Below are positions 10,267 through 21,532 of a stretch of DNA of 24,115 nt, piece by piece. The translations under genes and the position numbers were made by a program. Under the pieces are notes generated by a model. The model was given only the letters and a program-made list of their open reading frames with translations. It ran no database searches and was not told the DNA's origin. The DNA is from a virus: positions 1 through 24,115 of the IMG/VR virus record IMGVR_UViG_3300009155_000261; one strand, given 5' to 3'. The first letter of the stretch is position 1; every line of letters starts with the position of its first letter.

Positions 10267-12054
10267 ATGGCACAAGCATCTACCCAGTTCAGCAATGTAA
10301 TAATGTTTGAACAAGCCAAAAGCCTTCGAAACCTTAAAGAGTTATCGGAGAAGGTAGATTCATCGCAAAAGAATAATGAAGATACTAAATCTACCAAAGT
10401 AGTAGAAACATTAAACGAAAATTTAAAAACTCTTGCGCAAAAGATTGAAGATCAAACAAAAATAACTATCAGAAATGCGATCAAGGGTGGTGCTGGGGTA
10501 GAAAAGGCAGAACAAGTTAATAGTAAAGATGTTAAACTTGCTAGAGGTGAAGACGGTAAGGGATCTCGTTTAAGAAAGATTCTTCTTGGTGGTGATCAAA
10601 CAGAAGACATTAAAAAGAATAACTGGATGGGTAAATTCAGTCCAGGAATGGCAGTGTCTGGTTGGTTAGACAAAAGAGAGCAAAAGCAAGCGTATAAGAA
10701 AGAAGAAGGCGAGTTTGTTAAGGGTGCTATTCAAAATGATCCAAGAGCAATTGCTTTAAAGAATCTTAAAGGTGAAGACTACGCAGCTGAAGACGCAAAG
10801 AAACGCTTTGCTGAACTTAAAGAAAAAGAAAAAGAATTAAAAGAAGCTCAAAAAAGAATCGATGAATCTAAAGCAGCTGGATATGCTCCAAAGGTTAAAG
10901 ATGTAAAAGCCAGAGATGATGCAACTAAACAGATAATGGAGATTGATCCAAGAGAGCAATCAAGATTAAAAGCTGATGCTAAAAAAGATATCCAAGAAGG
11001 TAAAGTAAAAGAACCAAAGCATACAGAAAAGTCAGAAGATCAACAAGAAGATTCTAGAATTCAAGCACAGTCTGCTTCAGAAATGATTAATCTCCAAAAA
11101 GGAGAAGCTGCAAACGAAACATCAATGGGTCAAACACTCATTCAGTCTTTAGAAATTCAAAAACAAATGCTTGAAGCACTCAAAGAAGGTGGTGCTGGCG
11201 GTGGAAGTGGTGGTGGCTCGATGTTAGAAACTGCTTCGGATCTACTGGGTAAAGGCAAGGGTAAACTAGCAAAAGCTGGTGGGATGCTTAGTAAAACAGC
11301 TGGTTTCTTAGGTAGACACGCAGGAAAGATTGGAGCAATCGGTGGTGTTGCCATGGGTGCTTATGACGCATACACTGGATATAATGATGCTGAAGATGCA
11401 GTTCAGCGTGGAGAAATAACCAAAGAAGAAGGACAGGTTAAAAAGGGCGAAGCAATTGGTGGTGGAGTTGGTGGTGCTGGCGGTGCTTTTGCTGGCGCAG
11501 CAGCAGGTGCTGCTATTGGTTCAGTTGTTCCTGTTGTTGGAACAGCCATTGGTGGACTAGTTGGTGGTGCTCTTGGATATTATGGTGGTTCGGAAATCGG
11601 TAAAAAAGCTGGTGGAGCAATCACTGAAGGATATCAAGGTGCTAAAAGTTGGTTGGGATTCGGCAAAGAAGAAATTGATCCAGCAACTGGTAAGCCTAAA
11701 GAATCTGGTCTATCTAAATTTGCTGGTGGTGCCAAAGATATGTTTATGAAATATACTCCAGCAGGAATGGCAGCTGGAGCTATTATGAATAACAAAGATT
11801 CTCTAGTCAGTGGTGCTGAAAGTGTTGGTAAAGGTGTTACATCTACTGCATCATGGTTAGGTGATAAATTGTTCGGTGGATCTAAAGAAAACGAAGATTT
11901 GAAAGCTGCTTCTGGTAAGAAACCAGAAGAAACTAAAACAGTTCTCAATACATCAAACAATGTAGTCAATAACAATACAACTCAAGCAGCAAGGAAGTCT
12001 GTTCGATCAGATGAACCCAGTTCCAATAGGTACTTCAATAGTAGATACGCATAA
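10267..12054 (+). CDS. Putative tail tape measure protein (gp29-like by position and length)
   Basis: 595 residues; T4 gp29 has 590. Tape measures run inside the tail tube and set its length. Seen: a charged helical N-terminal half (residues 10-300) with a strong coiled-coil stretch around 172-203 (KKRFAELKEKEKELKEAQK); a Gly/Ser linker at 309-318; and a hydrophobic Gly/Ala-rich zone 325-455 with repeated GxxxG (AIGGGVGGAGGAFAGAAAGA, VGTAIGGLVGGALGYYGG) interrupted by an amphipathic stretch (YNDAEDAVQRGEITKEE). Such membrane-active segments are usual in tape measures. The C-terminus is Asn/Ser-rich and ends NRYFNSRYA. It directly follows the two-frame chaperone gene. I see no clear T4 gp29 motif, so the call rests on length, composition and position. 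Confidence 0.65.
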   Translation: MAQASTQFSNVIMFEQAKSLRNLKELSEKVDSSQKNNEDTKSTKVVETLNENLKTLAQKIEDQTKITIRNAIKGGAGVEKAEQVNSKDVKLARGEDGKGSRLRKILLGGDQTEDIKKNNWMGKFSPGMAVSGWLDKREQKQAYKKEEGEFVKGAIQNDPRAIALKNLKGEDYAAEDAKKRFAELKEKEKELKEAQKRIDESKAAGYAPKVKDVKARDDATKQIMEIDPREQSRLKADAKKDIQEGKVKEPKHTEKSEDQQEDSRIQAQSASEMINLQKGEAANETSMGQTLIQSLEIQKQMLEALKEGGAGGGSGGGSMLETASDLLGKGKGKLAKAGGMLSKTAGFLGRHAGKIGAIGGVAMGAYDAYTGYNDAEDAVQRGEITKEEGQVKKGEAIGGGVGGAGGAFAGAAAGAAIGSVVPVVGTAIGGLVGGALGYYGGSEIGKKAGGAITEGYQGAKSWLGFGKEEIDPATGKPKESGLSKFAGGAKDMFMKYTPAGMAAGAIMNNKDSLVSGAESVGKGVTSTASWLGDKLFGGSKENEDLKAASGKKPEETKTVLNTSNNVVNNNTTQAARKSVRSDEPSSNRYFNSRYA

Positions 12055-12080
12055 AAAAAGGGATCCGTTTGGATCCCTTT
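12053..12080 (-). terminator. Bidirectional intrinsic terminator, strongest on the minus strand
   Basis: A perfect 10-bp stem AAAGGGATCC / GGATCCCTTT (12057-12066 and 12071-12080) with a four-base loop. On the minus strand the stem is followed by seven T (bases 12059-12053), a good Rho-independent signal ending the gp32-pqqA transcript. On the plus strand it lies just after the tape-measure stop, with only three T. The two converging operons share it. Confidence 0.85.
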
Positions 12081-12116
12081 CTAACTAATAACTCAGGCGA
12101 TTTGCAGAGTTAGTGT

Positions 12117-12188
12117 TTATCGATTCATCACATACATAGTAACTTCAAATCCAAAACGCATTTCTGTCACAGCAGGTTTAGTCCACAT
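12117..12188 (-). CDS. pqqA: PqqA-like peptide (pyrroloquinoline quinone precursor)
   Basis: 23 codons: starts [10 protein letters not shown], continues RFGF, then EVTMY and ends NR. PqqA is the ribosomal peptide whose Glu and Tyr, three residues apart, are cross-linked by the radical SAM enzyme PqqE and become the PQQ cofactor. Seen: Trp2, Lys4, Pro5, Ala6, Glu15-Val-Thr-x-Tyr19 and the Asn-Arg end all sit at the positions found in typical 23-residue PqqA peptides, such as that of Klebsiella as I remember it. AGGAG lies seven bases before the ATG. It follows gp32 by 106 bases and precedes a strong terminator, so it is probably expressed with gp32. No pqqB-E genes are in the window; processing would need host enzymes. 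The start codon and Shine-Dalgarno lie in the loop of a 10-bp inverted repeat. A decoy or inhibitor of host PQQ synthesis is the alternative to a supply role. Confidence 0.85.
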
Positions 12189-12215
12189 AGTAATTCTCCT
12201 AAAGAGTGACAGAAA
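12161..12215 (-). promoter_or_regulatory. Inverted repeat enclosing the pqqA translation start
   Basis: TTTCTGTCAC (12161-12170, inside pqqA codons 7-10) is the perfect complement of GTGACAGAAA (12206-12215, upstream of its Shine-Dalgarno). In the pqqA mRNA the arms would form a 10-bp stem with the AGGAG and ATG in a 35-base loop. This could control ribosome access. Confidence 0.55.
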
Positions 12216-12254
12216 ATCCTGTCATTATTACTTATGATAACAGTGACAGGATTT
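12214..12254 (-). promoter_or_regulatory. Stem-loop between gp32 and pqqA
   Basis: AAATCCTGTCA (12214-12224) and TGACAGGATTT (12244-12254) form a perfect 11-bp stem with a 19-base AT-rich loop, 40 bases after the gp32 stop in the minus direction. It lacks a proper T-run, so it looks more like an mRNA stabiliser, processing site or leaky terminator. A 6-bp pairing of CTGTCA (12219-12224) with TGACAG (12207-12212) would compete with it and with the adjacent pqqA stem. Confidence 0.5.
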
Positions 12255-12294: not shown

Positions 12295-13218
12295 TTATGC
12301 TTCGTCAGCAATCTTCTGGAAGTATGACATAACATCTTCGTCATCATCCGTAGATTTAGTAACACTAACTGGTTTTGCAGCAACTGCTTGCGGAGCAGAA
12401 CGAGTTGGTGGTGTATAGTTATCATCTTCAGACAACTTCGCTGCAGACTTAACTGGTGAGGATTCTCCATCAAGTACATCAGCCAATTTCTTAGACAGTT
12501 CTTCAAAAGACTTGAAGTTCTTTGGTGCTAAGAATTCAGACAAAGCATACTGACGATTGAGGATCTCAACCATCTTGTCTTCATCACCTTGAGCCAATGG
12601 AGCAGGTTCCATGAATGCTGATTGGTCGTAGTTAGCATAACCATCAACCTTACGCATGCGCAACTTAAAGTCTGCGCCATCATATGGATCAAACACATTG
12701 ACTGGCTTTTCATCTTCAAAAGTTGGTCGTGCTTTGTCCATAATCTTATCAAAGATCTTTTTACCAAATTTGAAGAGCATAACTTTGCCTTCATTCTCTG
12801 GGTGCTTTGGATCAGACACTACCAACACATTGGCAATGTAAGACAAACGACGCTTCTGCTTGCGAGCAATTTCCTTATTGGCTTCTGAACCAGAATTCCA
12901 CAATTTAGAATTCAATTCACCAACAGGATCTTTTTCGTTGAGGGTTGTTAGAGAGTTTTCAATGTACCACTTACCAGTTGGTCCTTGAAATGAGTGATTG
13001 AAGATTCGAACCCATGGGAGTTCATCGCCTTCTACTCGTGGCAAGAATCGCAATGTTGCTGTTCCGTTGCCAGCCTTGTCAGCTTCCAACTTCCAGATGC
13101 GATCGTCTTGATAGGATTTTTGACCACCTGATGATTCGGGATTGGCGATCTTTTCGAATTCGGATGTGATTTTACCGAAGTCTGTGTTGCGCATTTTGCG
13201 TAGTGCTTGAATGTCCAT
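12295..13218 (-). CDS. 32: Single-stranded DNA-binding protein, gp32-like
   Basis: 307 residues (T4: 301). gp32 coats replication and recombination intermediates and recruits gp59, the polymerase and recombinase. Seen: the basic N-terminal cooperativity segment (ALRKMRN); an OB-fold core with GNGTATLRFLP, FNHSFQGPTGKWY, SYIANVLVVSDPKHPENEGK and KFGKKIFDKI, the last matching YRFGKKIWDKI in T4; and a C-terminal Pro/Ala-rich linker ending in an acidic tail (DDDEDVMSYFQ). The zinc-ligand cysteines of T4 gp32 are absent; that loop reads ENSLTTLNEKDP, as in cyanophage relatives. AAAGGAAATACG precedes the ATG, and the leader is AT-rich and unstructured, as expected for autogenous control. A possible promoter (TTGACA at 13286-13281, 16 bp, TACTAA) lies within and just past the preceding gene. 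Confidence 0.93.
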   Translation of the reverse strand: MDIQALRKMRNTDFGKITSEFEKIANPESSGGQKSYQDDRIWKLEADKAGNGTATLRFLPRVEGDELPWVRIFNHSFQGPTGKWYIENSLTTLNEKDPVGELNSKLWNSGSEANKEIARKQKRRLSYIANVLVVSDPKHPENEGKVMLFKFGKKIFDKIMDKARPTFEDEKPVNVFDPYDGADFKLRMRKVDGYANYDQSAFMEPAPLAQGDEDKMVEILNRQYALSEFLAPKNFKSFEELSKKLADVLDGESSPVKSAAKLSEDDNYTPPTRSAPQAVAAKPVSVTKSTDDDEDVMSYFQKIADEA

Positions 13219-17845: not shown

Positions 17846-18403
17846 TCAAAACGCACGAGTGTATGCAAGTTCAACACCATTCGTGTCACTATCACCACGC
17901 TTCATAAGATAACGAACACCAACTTCGTCTTTCTTAGTTACAGCGTAGTCAAAACCCAACTTGGTAGTACGAGTTTCATAGTTGTTTGATGTATTGAAAG
18001 CATTACGATAGCGATATGCTGCTTGCAATGATAAGTTATTAGTCAAAGCATAACTGGCTTTTGGTTCAAAAGTGTAGTAAGAGAAATCTTTGGTAGATGT
18101 AAATTTCTCACCAACACTAACTCGAGCACCCAATTTTACTGCAGGATAAACTTCCCACATTTTTTGGAGACGAGCCTCGACTTTATTTTCAAGTGTCTTG
18201 TCACCATCTTCACGACTTGCATAAAATTTGAGATCAGCCTTTAAGCCATTATCAAATTTGTAGTATGGTGCTACACTGAAAGTATTTTCGAAAGTATTTG
18301 GAGAATTATTTCCACGCTCTCGTTCAAACTCATAACCAACACCAGAGCCAGCAGCAAATGCTGAACCTGATGCTACTAATAAAACTAAAATTAACTTTTT
18401 CAT
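17846..18403 (-). CDS. Outer-membrane beta-barrel protein, KdgM-like porin
   Basis: 185 residues from the ATG at 18403 (AAGGAAT upstream; a longer reading overlaps the preceding gene without support). Seen: a signal peptide MKKLILVLLVASGSAFA, then alternating amphipathic beta strands with Tyr/Phe girdles (VGYEFERE, VAPYYKFDNGLKADLKFYAS, KLGARVSVGE, YTFEPKASYALTNNLSLQAA, TKLGFDYAV, VGVRYLMKRG) and a C-terminal strand ending YTRAF; a final Phe is the BAM insertion signal. Strand count suggests about 10-12 strands, like KdgM-type small porins. Phages rarely encode porins. It follows the permease gene by eight bases in the same transcript. The barrel is near certain; substrate and pore activity are unknown. 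Confidence 0.82.
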   Translation of the reverse strand: MKKLILVLLVASGSAFAAGSGVGYEFERERGNNSPNTFENTFSVAPYYKFDNGLKADLKFYASREDGDKTLENKVEARLQKMWEVYPAVKLGARVSVGEKFTSTKDFSYYTFEPKASYALTNNLSLQAAYRYRNAFNTSNNYETRTTKLGFDYAVTKKDEVGVRYLMKRGDSDTNGVELAYTRAF

Positions 18404-18411
18404 TTGATTCC

Positions 18412-19449
18412 TTATAATACAAAAGTAATAATACCTGCGGTTACCAATAATAGCAATCCCCAAGAAGATAGTGCCTTATAGTATGTCAATAGTGGTGTGC
18501 CGAAATATCGGTTACCAACAGCAACACACTTATGAGTTGGACTAATTAAGTAGCCAGCAAAATCGATAGCAAAGAACCATAAGAAATACTCAACTCCGAA
18601 AACTTGAGACATTAATACAGCAATAGCTACAAACTTACCAGAACTACCCATTAGAAAACTGGCGACAAATCCAATAGCACTAATGATGACCATACCAACA
18701 AAAGTGTGAGGATCTAACATACTTGTTTTAATGACGGCTTCGAATGCACCACTATTGGATTTCATATAGTTACCCAACACGATAGCCAAGCCAACCCAAA
18801 CAAGCACATCCCACTTAATGTAACCTAAAAGTTTCTTAGGATTCCATTGTTGTGTGATGATAACATAATATAGAGCCAATAAACCAAAACACAAAATATG
18901 ACTAGCACCAGCAATGTATGCTCCAACAGCAACAAACATTGGCACAGTGTTTCGTAATACAGCACTTAGTTTAAAATTTCCAGGTGTAATCGCAATTTCT
19001 TCTTCGTGTATTTGTGACCAAATATACCATCCGATGAAAAGCAAACTAACCACCAATAAAGGAGCAATCAATCCCAACCATGCTGTATAGGTTAACCCAA
19101 ATGCAGCGATTGGAAGAATCACAGTTTTCTCTAGCGGAGACCACAAATAATAGTGATGTGTCGCTAGATAGTCTACGATGCCCAATTTCTCTCTACCCTT
19201 GCCATCTTTCGAAGCAACAGTATCAAGAAGTCCAGCACTAACAGTAACTCTACCTTCAATTGGTAGAATGCCACCGATAGCACTCAACAGGGCGACCACA
19301 AATCTATTGGATCTGAATGTATTCTTAACATAGGCAAAAGCAGGGGCGAACAATTCGTACTGTTTCGCTAGTCCCGCACTGATCATAATGAAGAATATCA
19401 TCCAGAGGTACGAGATGTCTTTTAACAAGACATTATAGACAAAGTCCAT
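18412..19449 (-). CDS. Polytopic inner-membrane protein, DUF401-like permease
   Basis: 345 residues with about eight to ten hydrophobic segments. Seen: two re-entrant-like motifs in the two halves, SAIGGILPIEGRVTVSAGLL (about 56-75) and GYLISPTHKCVAVGNRYF (299-316), which match the GLLPMPGG...SAP and LSPxHLCLVLTxEYF signatures I associate with DUF401, a family of the ion-transporter type with no known substrate. There is no signal peptide; the first segment starts near residue 12. AAAGGAG lies six bases before the ATG. It directly precedes the porin-like gene, so the pair covers both membranes. The start lies 20 bases after the tmRNA terminator, so expression needs read-through or a promoter I cannot see. 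The family call is from memory of motifs. Confidence 0.72.
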   Translation of the reverse strand: MDFVYNVLLKDISYLWMIFFIMISAGLAKQYELFAPAFAYVKNTFRSNRFVVALLSAIGGILPIEGRVTVSAGLLDTVASKDGKGREKLGIVDYLATHHYYLWSPLEKTVILPIAAFGLTYTAWLGLIAPLLVVSLLFIGWYIWSQIHEEEIAITPGNFKLSAVLRNTVPMFVAVGAYIAGASHILCFGLLALYYVIITQQWNPKKLLGYIKWDVLVWVGLAIVLGNYMKSNSGAFEAVIKTSMLDPHTFVGMVIISAIGFVASFLMGSSGKFVAIAVLMSQVFGVEYFLWFFAIDFAGYLISPTHKCVAVGNRYFGTPLLTYYKALSSWGLLLLVTAGIITFVL

Positions 19450-19469: not shown

Positions 19470-19496
19470 AAAAACTCAGTTTTAAAGGGACTGAGC
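19470..19496 (-). terminator. Intrinsic terminator after the tmRNA coding piece
   Basis: GCTCAGT / ACTGAG stem (arms at 19490-19496 and 19475-19480) with a loop of about nine bases, followed by five T (19474-19470) on the minus strand. It closes the tmRNA transcript just before the DUF401-like gene. Confidence 0.8.
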
Positions 19497-19562
19497 AAAA
19501 CCCTAAAGTATTTAGTAGTGGTTATTCTGTTACGAGGAAACCACCAAAACCCTAAGCAGTGT

Positions 19563-19595
19563 TTAGGCTGCTAATGCGAACTGTGAGTCGTTTGC
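19563..19595 (-). other. tmRNA tag reading frame
   Basis: Ten codons then TAA: A-N-D-S-Q-F-A-L-A-A. With the tmRNA-borne alanine the tag would be AANDSQFALAA. The ALAA end is the classic degron read by ClpXP and ClpAP. The resume codon is GCA, preceded by GTAAAC. Confidence 0.9.
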
Positions 19596-19680
19596 GTTTA
19601 CTTTGTTTTCTTCTTTTTACATCGTCGCTGATGTGTTGCCGTCTCTACTATCTCACCCTGTCGAAACCTAGTCACCCCCA

Positions 19681-19749
19681 TCAAAAGAAGACATGTATAC
19701 ATATTACAGTTATTAGTGATACTATACAAATAAACTCATATGTTTTCAT
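19681..19749 (-). CDS. Membrane micro-ORF inside the tmRNA spacer
   Basis: 22 residues: MKTYEFICIVSLITVICI then HVFF, one hydrophobic helix. AAGGAG (19760-19755) lies five bases before the ATG, one of the best ribosome sites in the window. The frame fills the spacer between the two tmRNA pieces almost exactly: it starts 12 bases after the CCA end and its TGA ends one base before the 5' G of the coding piece (19679). It could be a phage membrane microprotein translated from the tmRNA precursor before processing. No family is recognisable at this length. Confidence 0.55.
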   Translation of the reverse strand: MKTYEFICIVSLITVICIHVFF

Positions 19750-19825
19750 AATATCTCCTTATGGTGGAGGTGGGGAGAATCGAACTCCCGTCCAGAATGC
19801 CTTCGCTTTGAAGGGATTACAACAA

Positions 19826-20131
19826 TTACCTATTGTAGCAGAAATTACCCTGCACAATTTGTCCATTAATCATTTCACTTCTCAATTCACAGTATTGACC
19901 CAACTGAGGAATAACAGTAACTGGAGCAGACTGTGGATAAACATAAACAGTTTGCGGTTGCTGATATACTGGAACTTGTTGATAAATTACTGTTGGTTGT
20001 GGTCGTGTTACAATATAACCAAACAATGATCCTGCTACGAATGGCACAAACGGATCACGACCATATCCATGAGCCATTGCTGGTGTCGCAATACTAATAG
20101 AAATCAATAAACTTGCAATTAGTTTTTTCAT
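19826..20131 (-). CDS. Small secreted protein, Pro/Gln/Tyr-rich
   Basis: 101 residues from the ATG at 20131, chosen for AGGAG upstream; longer readings start within the promoter leader. Seen: a signal peptide MKKLIASLLISISIATPAMA, then HGYGRDPFVPFVAGSLFGYIV, a glycine-containing hydrophobic hairpin, a low-complexity stretch of Val/Tyr/Gln/Pro repeats (VIYQQVPVYQQPQTVYVYPQ), and a C-terminal domain with two Cys (YCELRSEMINGQIVQGNFCY). This architecture is common in small proteobacterial envelope proteins, suggesting host origin. Function unknown. Its stop codon is where the tmRNA acceptor piece begins, so both probably come from one transcript. Confidence 0.75.
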   Translation of the reverse strand: MKKLIASLLISISIATPAMAHGYGRDPFVPFVAGSLFGYIVTRPQPTVIYQQVPVYQQPQTVYVYPQSAPVTVIPQLGQYCELRSEMINGQIVQGNFCYNR

Positions 20132-20840: not shown

Positions 20841-21152
20841 TTAAACTGAAAAACTGCTCCCACAACCACAAGTTGTTTTGGCATTTGGATTGGATATAAC
20901 AAATTGAGATCCTTTTAATTTATCACTAGTAAAATCTATAGTAGCGTTGTCAAAATACTGCATACTCATTGCATCTACTACGAGTTTGTCAATAACGAAG
21001 TCATCTTCTTCTTTGTTCTCTTCAATAGTAAACCCATAATTAAAACCAGAGCAACCTCCACCAGAGATAAATGCTCTTACATATTTTCCATTCGGTTCAT
21101 CCATTAGGATTTCATCGAGTTGTTTCTTTGCTGCTTCTGTTACAGTAATCAT
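20841..21152 (-). CDS. A-type Fe-S cluster carrier (IscA/ErpA/HesB family)
   Basis: 103 residues from the ATG at 21152, which overlaps the IscU stop (ATGA). A-type carriers pass [2Fe-2S] or [4Fe-4S] clusters from the scaffold to target proteins. Seen: ITVTEAAKKQLDEIL, the usual start; FISGGGCSGFNYGF with Cys34; and the C-terminal TTCGCGSSF with Cys95 and Cys97, the three conserved ligands. Length is standard. The order IscU-IscA with overlap is an Isc-like pair, but no cysteine desulfurase (IscS) is present, so sulfur must come from the host. Phage HesB-type genes are known in marine T4-like phages. Which member (IscA, ErpA, SufA) cannot be decided. Confidence 0.92.
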   Translation of the reverse strand: MITVTEAAKKQLDEILMDEPNGKYVRAFISGGGCSGFNYGFTIEENKEEDDFVIDKLVVDAMSMQYFDNATIDFTSDKLKGSQFVISNPNAKTTCGCGSSFSV

Positions 21153-21532
21153 GAGCAGGCACACTTTAGTTGATAGTCGTTTACTGCTGCTTTGATCGCA
21201 TCTTCCGCAAGTATACTGCAATGAATCTTGACTGGCGGTAATGCGAGTTCTTCTGCAATCTCGCTATTCTTAATGCTTCCTGCTTGCTCCAGCGTTTTGC
21301 CCTTGACCCATTCAGTGACGAGCGAACTGCTAGCGATTGCAGAGCCACATCCGTAAGTTTTAAATTTCGCATCTGTGATAATGCCATCTTCTACCTTTAT
21401 TTGTAATTTCATCACATCACCACATGCTGGTGCTCCGACCATTCCAGTACCAACCGATGGATCATCTTTATCTAAAGAACCCACATTTCGTGGATTCTCA
21501 TAGTGGTCGATAACTTTGTCTGAGTAAGCCAT
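21149..21532 (-). CDS. iscU: Fe-S cluster assembly scaffold IscU
   Basis: 127 residues, same length as bacterial IscU. It assembles [2Fe-2S] clusters from iron and IscS-derived sulfur. Seen: YSDKVIDHYENPRNVGSLD; APACGDVMKLQ with Cys37 and Asp39; TYGCGSAIASSSLVTEW with Cys62; the chaperone-binding site LPPVKIHCSILAEDAI with LPPVK (98-102), His104 and Cys105. All ligands and the HscA-recognition LPPVK motif are intact, so it should work with host HscA/HscB. Its ATG overlaps the stop of the GH19 gene. A functional IscU in a phage is uncommon; the high conservation points to recent acquisition or strong selection. Confidence 0.94.
   Translation of the reverse strand: MAYSDKVIDHYENPRNVGSLDKDDPSVGTGMVGAPACGDVMKLQIKVEDGIITDAKFKTYGCGSAIASSSLVTEWVKGKTLEQAGSIKNSEIAEELALPPVKIHCSILAEDAIKAAVNDYQLKCACS

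Follow-up and report, generated by a model that had tools for sequence, protein, structure and literature searches.

PqqA encoded beside gp32 in a T4-type virus, and at other positions in many further phages: a putative supply of the PQQ precursor to methylotroph hosts

Cyanophages carry psbA and with it supply their host with a fast-consumed part of its energy machinery. PqqA, the precursor peptide of the cofactor PQQ, may offer a parallel by analogy: each PQQ consumes one PqqA, which makes the peptide the part that the pathway uses up and leaves the enzymes reusable, whereas psbA encodes a protein subunit, and the benefit of a precursor peptide to a phage is putative. It is established that PqqE joins a Glu and a Tyr of PqqA with the help of PqqD (PMC5715301, accessible text). 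The closest described system is VP_266, a T4-like phage population from Lake Baikal assigned to Methylophilaceae, for which PqqA was reported in 2020 and read as an aid to methanol oxidation (PMC7678222, accessible text). The locus described here is likewise a pqqA in a T4-like phage of a probable methylotroph, but VP_266 also encodes a methanol dehydrogenase, which is not among the five largest ORFs (345–955 aa) of our fragment, and the accessible text of that account holds no study of the position, conservation or spread of pqqA. The initial annotation of our locus, which counted no PqqA among the known auxiliary metabolic genes of T4-like phages, was thus mistaken on this point: the gene is not unprecedented, and what is new is the extent of phage pqqA. 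Viral pqqA, pqqD and pqqE have also been listed among phosphorus-cycle genes of reservoir sediments, where pqqA is counted as viral, as here, but in the accessible text is listed without gene-level study and framed as phosphate solubilisation (PMC13188868). On the host side, a methanol-grown PQQ producer carries five pqqA copies, three of them away from the operons, and one operon copy and one solitary copy are expressed most (PMC9851590, accessible text). We found no cross-lineage study of phage pqqA in the open-access literature, and the breadth of phage pqqA appears to be undescribed in the searchable literature.

The window, by which we mean the whole stretch of DNA analyzed (a virus contig of 24,115 bases), contains the following features at and around pqqA:

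12117..12188, minus strand: pqqA, 23 codons plus stop (translation, profile matches and whole-record search)
12195..12200, minus strand: Shine-Dalgarno AGGAGA ahead of the pqqA ATG (read in the sequence)
12295..13218, minus strand: gp32, single-stranded DNA-binding protein, upstream neighbor, possibly co-transcribed (PF08804, 149.6 bits; phrog_224, 360.7 bits)
10267..12054, plus strand: tape-measure-like gene, convergent downstream neighbor (weak phrog_794 match, E 2e-9)
12055..12082, minus strand: terminator-like hairpin 3' of pqqA, common to the convergent tail gene (-17.5 kcal/mol, z -4.9)
12214..12254, minus strand: stem-loop between gp32 and pqqA (fold -20 kcal/mol, z -3.9)

The strand of pqqA, absent from the initial annotation, is minus by translation. 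All of the features that had suggested PqqA are present in the translated peptide, namely the length, Trp2, Pro5, the Glu15-Val-Thr-x-Tyr19 segment (here with Met as the variable residue) and the Asn22-Arg23 end. The profile search that had been proposed with them was clearly positive: the peptide scored 43.8 bits against PF08042 (Pfam PqqA; cut-off 21.1, E 2.2e-11) and 46.5 bits against the NCBI equivalog TIGR02107 (cut-off 20, E 2.2e-12). With about 23 residues, its own start and its own ribosome site, the gene is what is expected of pqqA. A whole-record search found one PqqA site in the contig and no sites in 14 control genomes. Because both curated cut-offs are exceeded and the control genomes gave nothing, this is not a chance match. 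With the window peptide as query, PHROGs returned no family, although a query of this length could escape its filters, and a PDB sequence search gave no match. T4-type tail, hub, head-closure and helicase-loader genes and a PhoH gene lie within the window, which is thus phage DNA, and pqqA is a host-type metabolic gene within a real phage genome, that is, an auxiliary metabolic gene. The identity of this frame as a genuine phage-encoded PqqA is strongly supported. Elsewhere in the window, all on the minus strand, we observed an IscU gene (TIGR01999, 224 bits) adjoining an ErpA-type Fe-S insertion protein gene (NF010147, 126 bits; 20841–21532, both over cut-off), a DUF401-type membrane protein of 345 aa (18412–19449, also phrog_14035) with an outer-membrane beta-barrel gene (17846–18463), and a ClpP-type protease (PF00574, 15985–16560). 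A link of the IscU and ErpA-type genes with pqqA is possible because PqqE is an Fe-S enzyme.

As described, pqqA lies between gp32 and a terminator-like hairpin, with gp32, which is T4-type and lies 106 nt upstream, identified by two profiles and the hairpin by its fold (12-bp stem and U-run). A simple terminator scan did not list this hairpin, we think because its stem occupies part of the T-run; it may be the former terminator of gp32, now shared with the convergent gene. The stem-loop between gp32 and pqqA has a similar counterpart, by fold and alignment, in the one gp32-linked relative (L136; -27 kcal/mol, z -3.6). A scan of the minus strand between positions 11900 and 12500 of the window gave no sigma-70-like site, and the likeliest route to a pqqA transcript would be read-through from gp32 past the stem-loop. 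The gene may be expressed abundantly together with gp32, as had been suggested. A T4-type late promoter before pqqA was also considered (CATAAGTA at 12229–12236, where L136 has TATAAGTA), and this reading was dropped because such octamers are no commoner in the window than in shuffles.

The association of pqqA with gp32 is rare. Among the best 80 of at least 600 gp32 loci, picked by similarity to the gp32 of the window, a permissive PqqA motif scan found pqqA in a single locus, L136, which shares its contig with L068; there it lies some 100 nt beyond gp32. Three of the 80 loci stop less than 300 nt from gp32. A profile search of whole records, covering 40 of these best 80 relatives, likewise detected the gene in one, and none was found in gp32-relative records of 174, 168 and 165 kb. 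The idea that related phages would carry the gene beside gp32 therefore did not hold in this set, a conserved gp32-pqqA operon is rejected on both counts, and, with 39 of the 40 records lacking pqqA, the lineage can evidently do without it. In six relatives (L137, L138, L139, L141, L143 and L145), a terminator-like hairpin, recognized by eye, directly follows gp32, so the window and L136 carry about 130–190 extra nt at this point; the absence of pqqA from the same site in close relatives is that of a moron-like cassette. The pqqA genes of the window and L136 differ at 10 of 23 codons, 8 of them synonymously, a mainly synonymous pattern that agrees with the protein selection anticipated for the frame (NG86: pqqA dN 0.065 with dS not computable, against gp32 dN 0.108 and dS 1.9). 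At the DNA level, the window gene matches the gp32-linked L068 copy at 56 of 69 bases and the best host or other phage copies at 60 of 69; the L068 copy is thus no nearer than these, and the two gp32-linked genes need not share one recent transfer. With the upstream stretch included, L068/L136 is the best match to the window (82% over 132 nt). Other T4-type phages carry pqqA elsewhere, about 4 kb (L258) or 2.5 kb (L295) before a gp32-family ORF; in Melnitz, pqqA lies at 76 kb and gp32 at 49 kb.

Outside the gp32 relatives, pqqA proved to be widespread. A tblastn search of the window peptide against 50,697 phage records matched 12, of which we left out both records named Acinetobacter phage MD-2021a because the one inspected (L008, CAKLQF020000010.1), in which pqqA is followed by pqqB, pqqC, pqqD and a radical SAM gene, looks bacterial. 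The ten kept records are MW202481 (source Manatee Spring), Venkman, P19250A, MEP301, MEP401, MEP402 and four Melnitz records, and nine of them are Methylophilales phages, of unlike types. None of the ten is annotated with PqqA under the match, and in Melnitz and MW202481, among the six deposited loci inspected, an antisense 'hypothetical protein' overlaps the gene; annotation misses pqqA because it is so short. Neither 'pqq' nor 'pyrroloquinoline' occurs in the main text of the MEP301 paper (PMC8024684) or in that of the study describing phages of OM43 strain FZCC0133, which hosts MEP401 and MEP402 (PMC10580990); in the Melnitz paper, PQQ is mentioned solely as a medium additive (PMC9004378). 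Pattern scans of IMG/VR added at least 237 loci: at least 126 of the Met10 type, found in two scans of at least 120 rows each that read IMG/VR in the same order and are not independent samples, 104 of the Leu10 type, and 7 of the alphaproteobacterial type. With the window, the total is at least 239 sites in 238 loci, since one contig carries two copies. On one viral contig (L245), two pqqA genes lie in tandem (11629–11700 and 11763–11834). In the MEP301-like lineage, sampled by terminase rather than by pqqA (at least 80 records), the gene was present in 9 of the 27 longest of 80 records, and in 5 of the 7 records of at least 32 kb, the remaining 2 being without it.

Among the matches listed, all 233 translations inspected run to the stop, and the ribosome-site match is 5 bases in 139 sites, 4 bases in 92 and none in 6 of the 237 assessed. 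A Met10 pattern that fixes residues 10–20 only also recovered the PqqA Trp and Pro in 80 of the 80 loci listed. Glu15 and Tyr19 are fixed by most of our patterns and free in one Met10-type scan, and there both residues are kept in 122 of 122 sites among the matches listed, with codons that do change (Glu15: 120 GAA and 2 GAG; Tyr19: 66 TAC and 56 TAT); the free variation that would have spoken against a working PqqA was thus not seen. The positions that vary are 4, 6, 7 and 21. Judged from codon tables of this pattern-chosen set, in which positions 1, 4, 6–8, 15 and 19–23 were free, phage pqqA is under purifying selection on the protein. Conservation in related phages, which the initial annotation had named as a test, was borne out in part: the frame recurs in more than 200 other phage loci, but it is absent from nearly all close gp32 relatives. 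The varying positions would suit a peptide redirected to another use, for example in regulation or as another kind of cross-linked peptide, which we nevertheless regard as highly unlikely, given that none of the residues involved in the known chemistry has changed and that the equivalog cut-off is exceeded. It is more improbable still, to the point of being negligible, that these contigs stem from the host or are bacterial sequence under a wrong label. The two matching MD-2021a records, of which the one inspected looks bacterial, and a peptide close to the locus end in L251 and L252, of a type that we take to be enterobacterial, point in that direction. However, gp32, tail tube, hub, head-closure and helicase-loader genes surround the site in the window, pqqA occurs in records deposited as complete phage genomes, and one terminase profile matches 25 of 50 records, although it also matches 11 of 14 control genomes.

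We also compared the placement of pqqA across 245 sites (239 plus six from deposited phages, among the matches listed), of which 219 have both neighboring ORFs visible. At 83 of these, pqqA is in line with both ORFs, and at 69 it is antisense to both; a sense ORF before and an antisense ORF after is seen at 48, and the reverse at 19. Based on mechanically called ORFs and single linkage, which make the neighbor assignments and counts rough, the 245 sites show 148 distinct flanking-family pairs, with contig ends counted as a kind of neighbor, and fall into 43 contig clusters. Among the matches listed, a terminator-like hairpin follows 117 of 234 phage pqqA genes versus 73 of 1370 ends of other ORFs from those loci (random-window control: 30 of 1070), an excess that is partly expected because pqqA may end a transcript while the comparison ORFs lie within gene strings; at convergent sites the hairpin may belong to the neighbor. 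Where the upstream ORF is antisense, a sigma-70-like site precedes 51 of 89 pqqA genes versus 613 of 1780 shuffles that preserve base composition alone, a modest excess. Because of these enrichments, phage pqqA often looks, at the level of sequence signals, like its own transcription unit, a pattern to which the window may be an exception. The variety of positions bears on whether pqqA is instead a passenger, a piece of host DNA of no use to the phage, acquired by chance or as an integration attachment site. We hold this to be very improbable in spite of the patchy presence among gp32 relatives: the protein is conserved while synonymous change accumulates, the sites are as diverse as the flanking pairs indicate, and a tyrosine integrase is over cut-off in 3 of 50 records (many of them fragments, with serine integrases outside the search), on which count the attachment-site version was rejected.

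We searched genome_contigs with a pattern of the window peptide type and obtained at least 80 rows, several of which may share one genome. Of the 80 rows listed, 67 carry names that we take to be Methylophilales, and 13 are vaguer (e.g. Betaproteobacteria). The 22 whole genomes taken from these rows, 19 with Methylophilales-type names, contain pqqA by construction, at 1–12 copies per genome (median 3, 91 in all), and 21 of the 22 have PqqE over cut-off. Phage copies belong to the same peptide family as those of multi-copy methylotroph hosts, some of which are solitary (PMC9851590, accessible text), but unlike host copies they lie among phage genes, and PqqE was over cut-off in none of 50 phage records (of 237, mostly the longer ones and many of them fragments, with PqqB, PqqC and PqqD outside the search); the 50 records gave one weak radical-SAM match. 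A PQQ-dependent dehydrogenase was over cut-off in one of the same 50 records (L041, 72 kb) and weakly matched in another. L041 carries pqqA and a methanol/ethanol-type PQQ dehydrogenase (607.9 bits), followed by a formate dehydrogenase alpha subunit, contains phage exonuclease and virion-protein families, and has ribonucleotide reductase and methanol dehydrogenase in common with the Baikal phages (PMC7678222, accessible text). On the same contig, the stretch L538 (13989–18783) encodes, next to pqqA and phage genes, the PQQ-dependent dehydrogenase, formate dehydrogenase alpha and a DnaK, and by eye also contains curli-like and cytidylyltransferase-like genes. The median best match between phage and host pqqA DNA is 62 of 69 bases, and 2 exact sequences are common to the 185 unique phage and 114 unique host genes.

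As to the host of the window virus, the contig bears a permuted tmRNA gene (19492–19875, minus strand) of betaproteobacterial type (RF01850, E 1.2e-48; ARAGORN tag ANDSQFALAA), which indicates a betaproteobacterial host, in line with Methylophilales. A blastn search of this tmRNA against phage records gave short matches only, in six Pseudomonas phage records, and because two patterns of the tag found it in none of the 22 genomes, we infer rather than assign that the virus probably infects methanol-eating bacteria. Phage-host pairs with the gene exist in culture: Venkman and Melnitz on H5P1, MEP301 on FZCC2181 and P19250A on IMCC19250. In such hosts the peptide could in principle act as a decoy that occupies PqqD and PqqE and lowers PQQ, or serve some other host-phage conflict. 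If overproduced, so small a peptide could act as a competitor, and a host RiPP family annotated as PqqA and co-expressed with defence systems has been suggested to have a host-phage role (PMC11118758, accessible text). We consider this very unlikely, as a decoy would have no need of both reacting residues, which phage pqqA retains at every listed site where they were free to vary, the phage genes are close to host genes, hosts themselves keep several copies, and one phage also has a PQQ-type dehydrogenase.

The reading that we favor, and consider probable, is that a host-derived, Methylophilales-type pqqA is kept by the phage and feeds the host Pqq enzymes during infection, thereby sustaining PQQ. 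It builds on the family identity, the retention of the reacting residues, the selection on the protein, the recurrence of the gene in phage records that gave no PqqE match, and the occurrence of this peptide type in PqqE-bearing Methylophilales; the window virus would infect such a host, express the gene, have its peptide converted to PQQ and gain from it. Specifically, pqqA would have been taken from the host and retained as a small extra gene, and the 23-residue peptide would be made in the infected cell and bound by host PqqD. Host PqqE would then cross-link Glu15 and Tyr19, other host Pqq enzymes would finish PQQ, and the product would load PQQ-dependent methanol dehydrogenases. When the phage stops host gene expression, its own pqqA copy could maintain the cofactor and methanol-derived energy. 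Since the phages bring the substrate and no PqqE was found with it, feeding the host pathway is the most economical reading, and the peptide may raise PQQ in infected cells. In Acetobacter, overexpression of pqqAB raised PQQ by 29% and that of pqqABCDE eightfold (PMC7936290, accessible text), a difference implying that PqqA may not be the main limit.

Our observations suggest that a contribution by phages to the PQQ supply of their hosts is frequent. A wider proposition, to which we give somewhat less than even chances, is that pqqA is among the most common metabolic genes of methylotroph phages and among the most overlooked, a tiny self-contained unit acquired repeatedly by unrelated phages because PqqA, used one for one, would run out first at host shutdown. 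If this is true, phages would control a cofactor required for methanol oxidation, and phage PqqA would set PQQ, and perhaps methanol oxidation itself, in infected methylotrophs of oceans and lakes.
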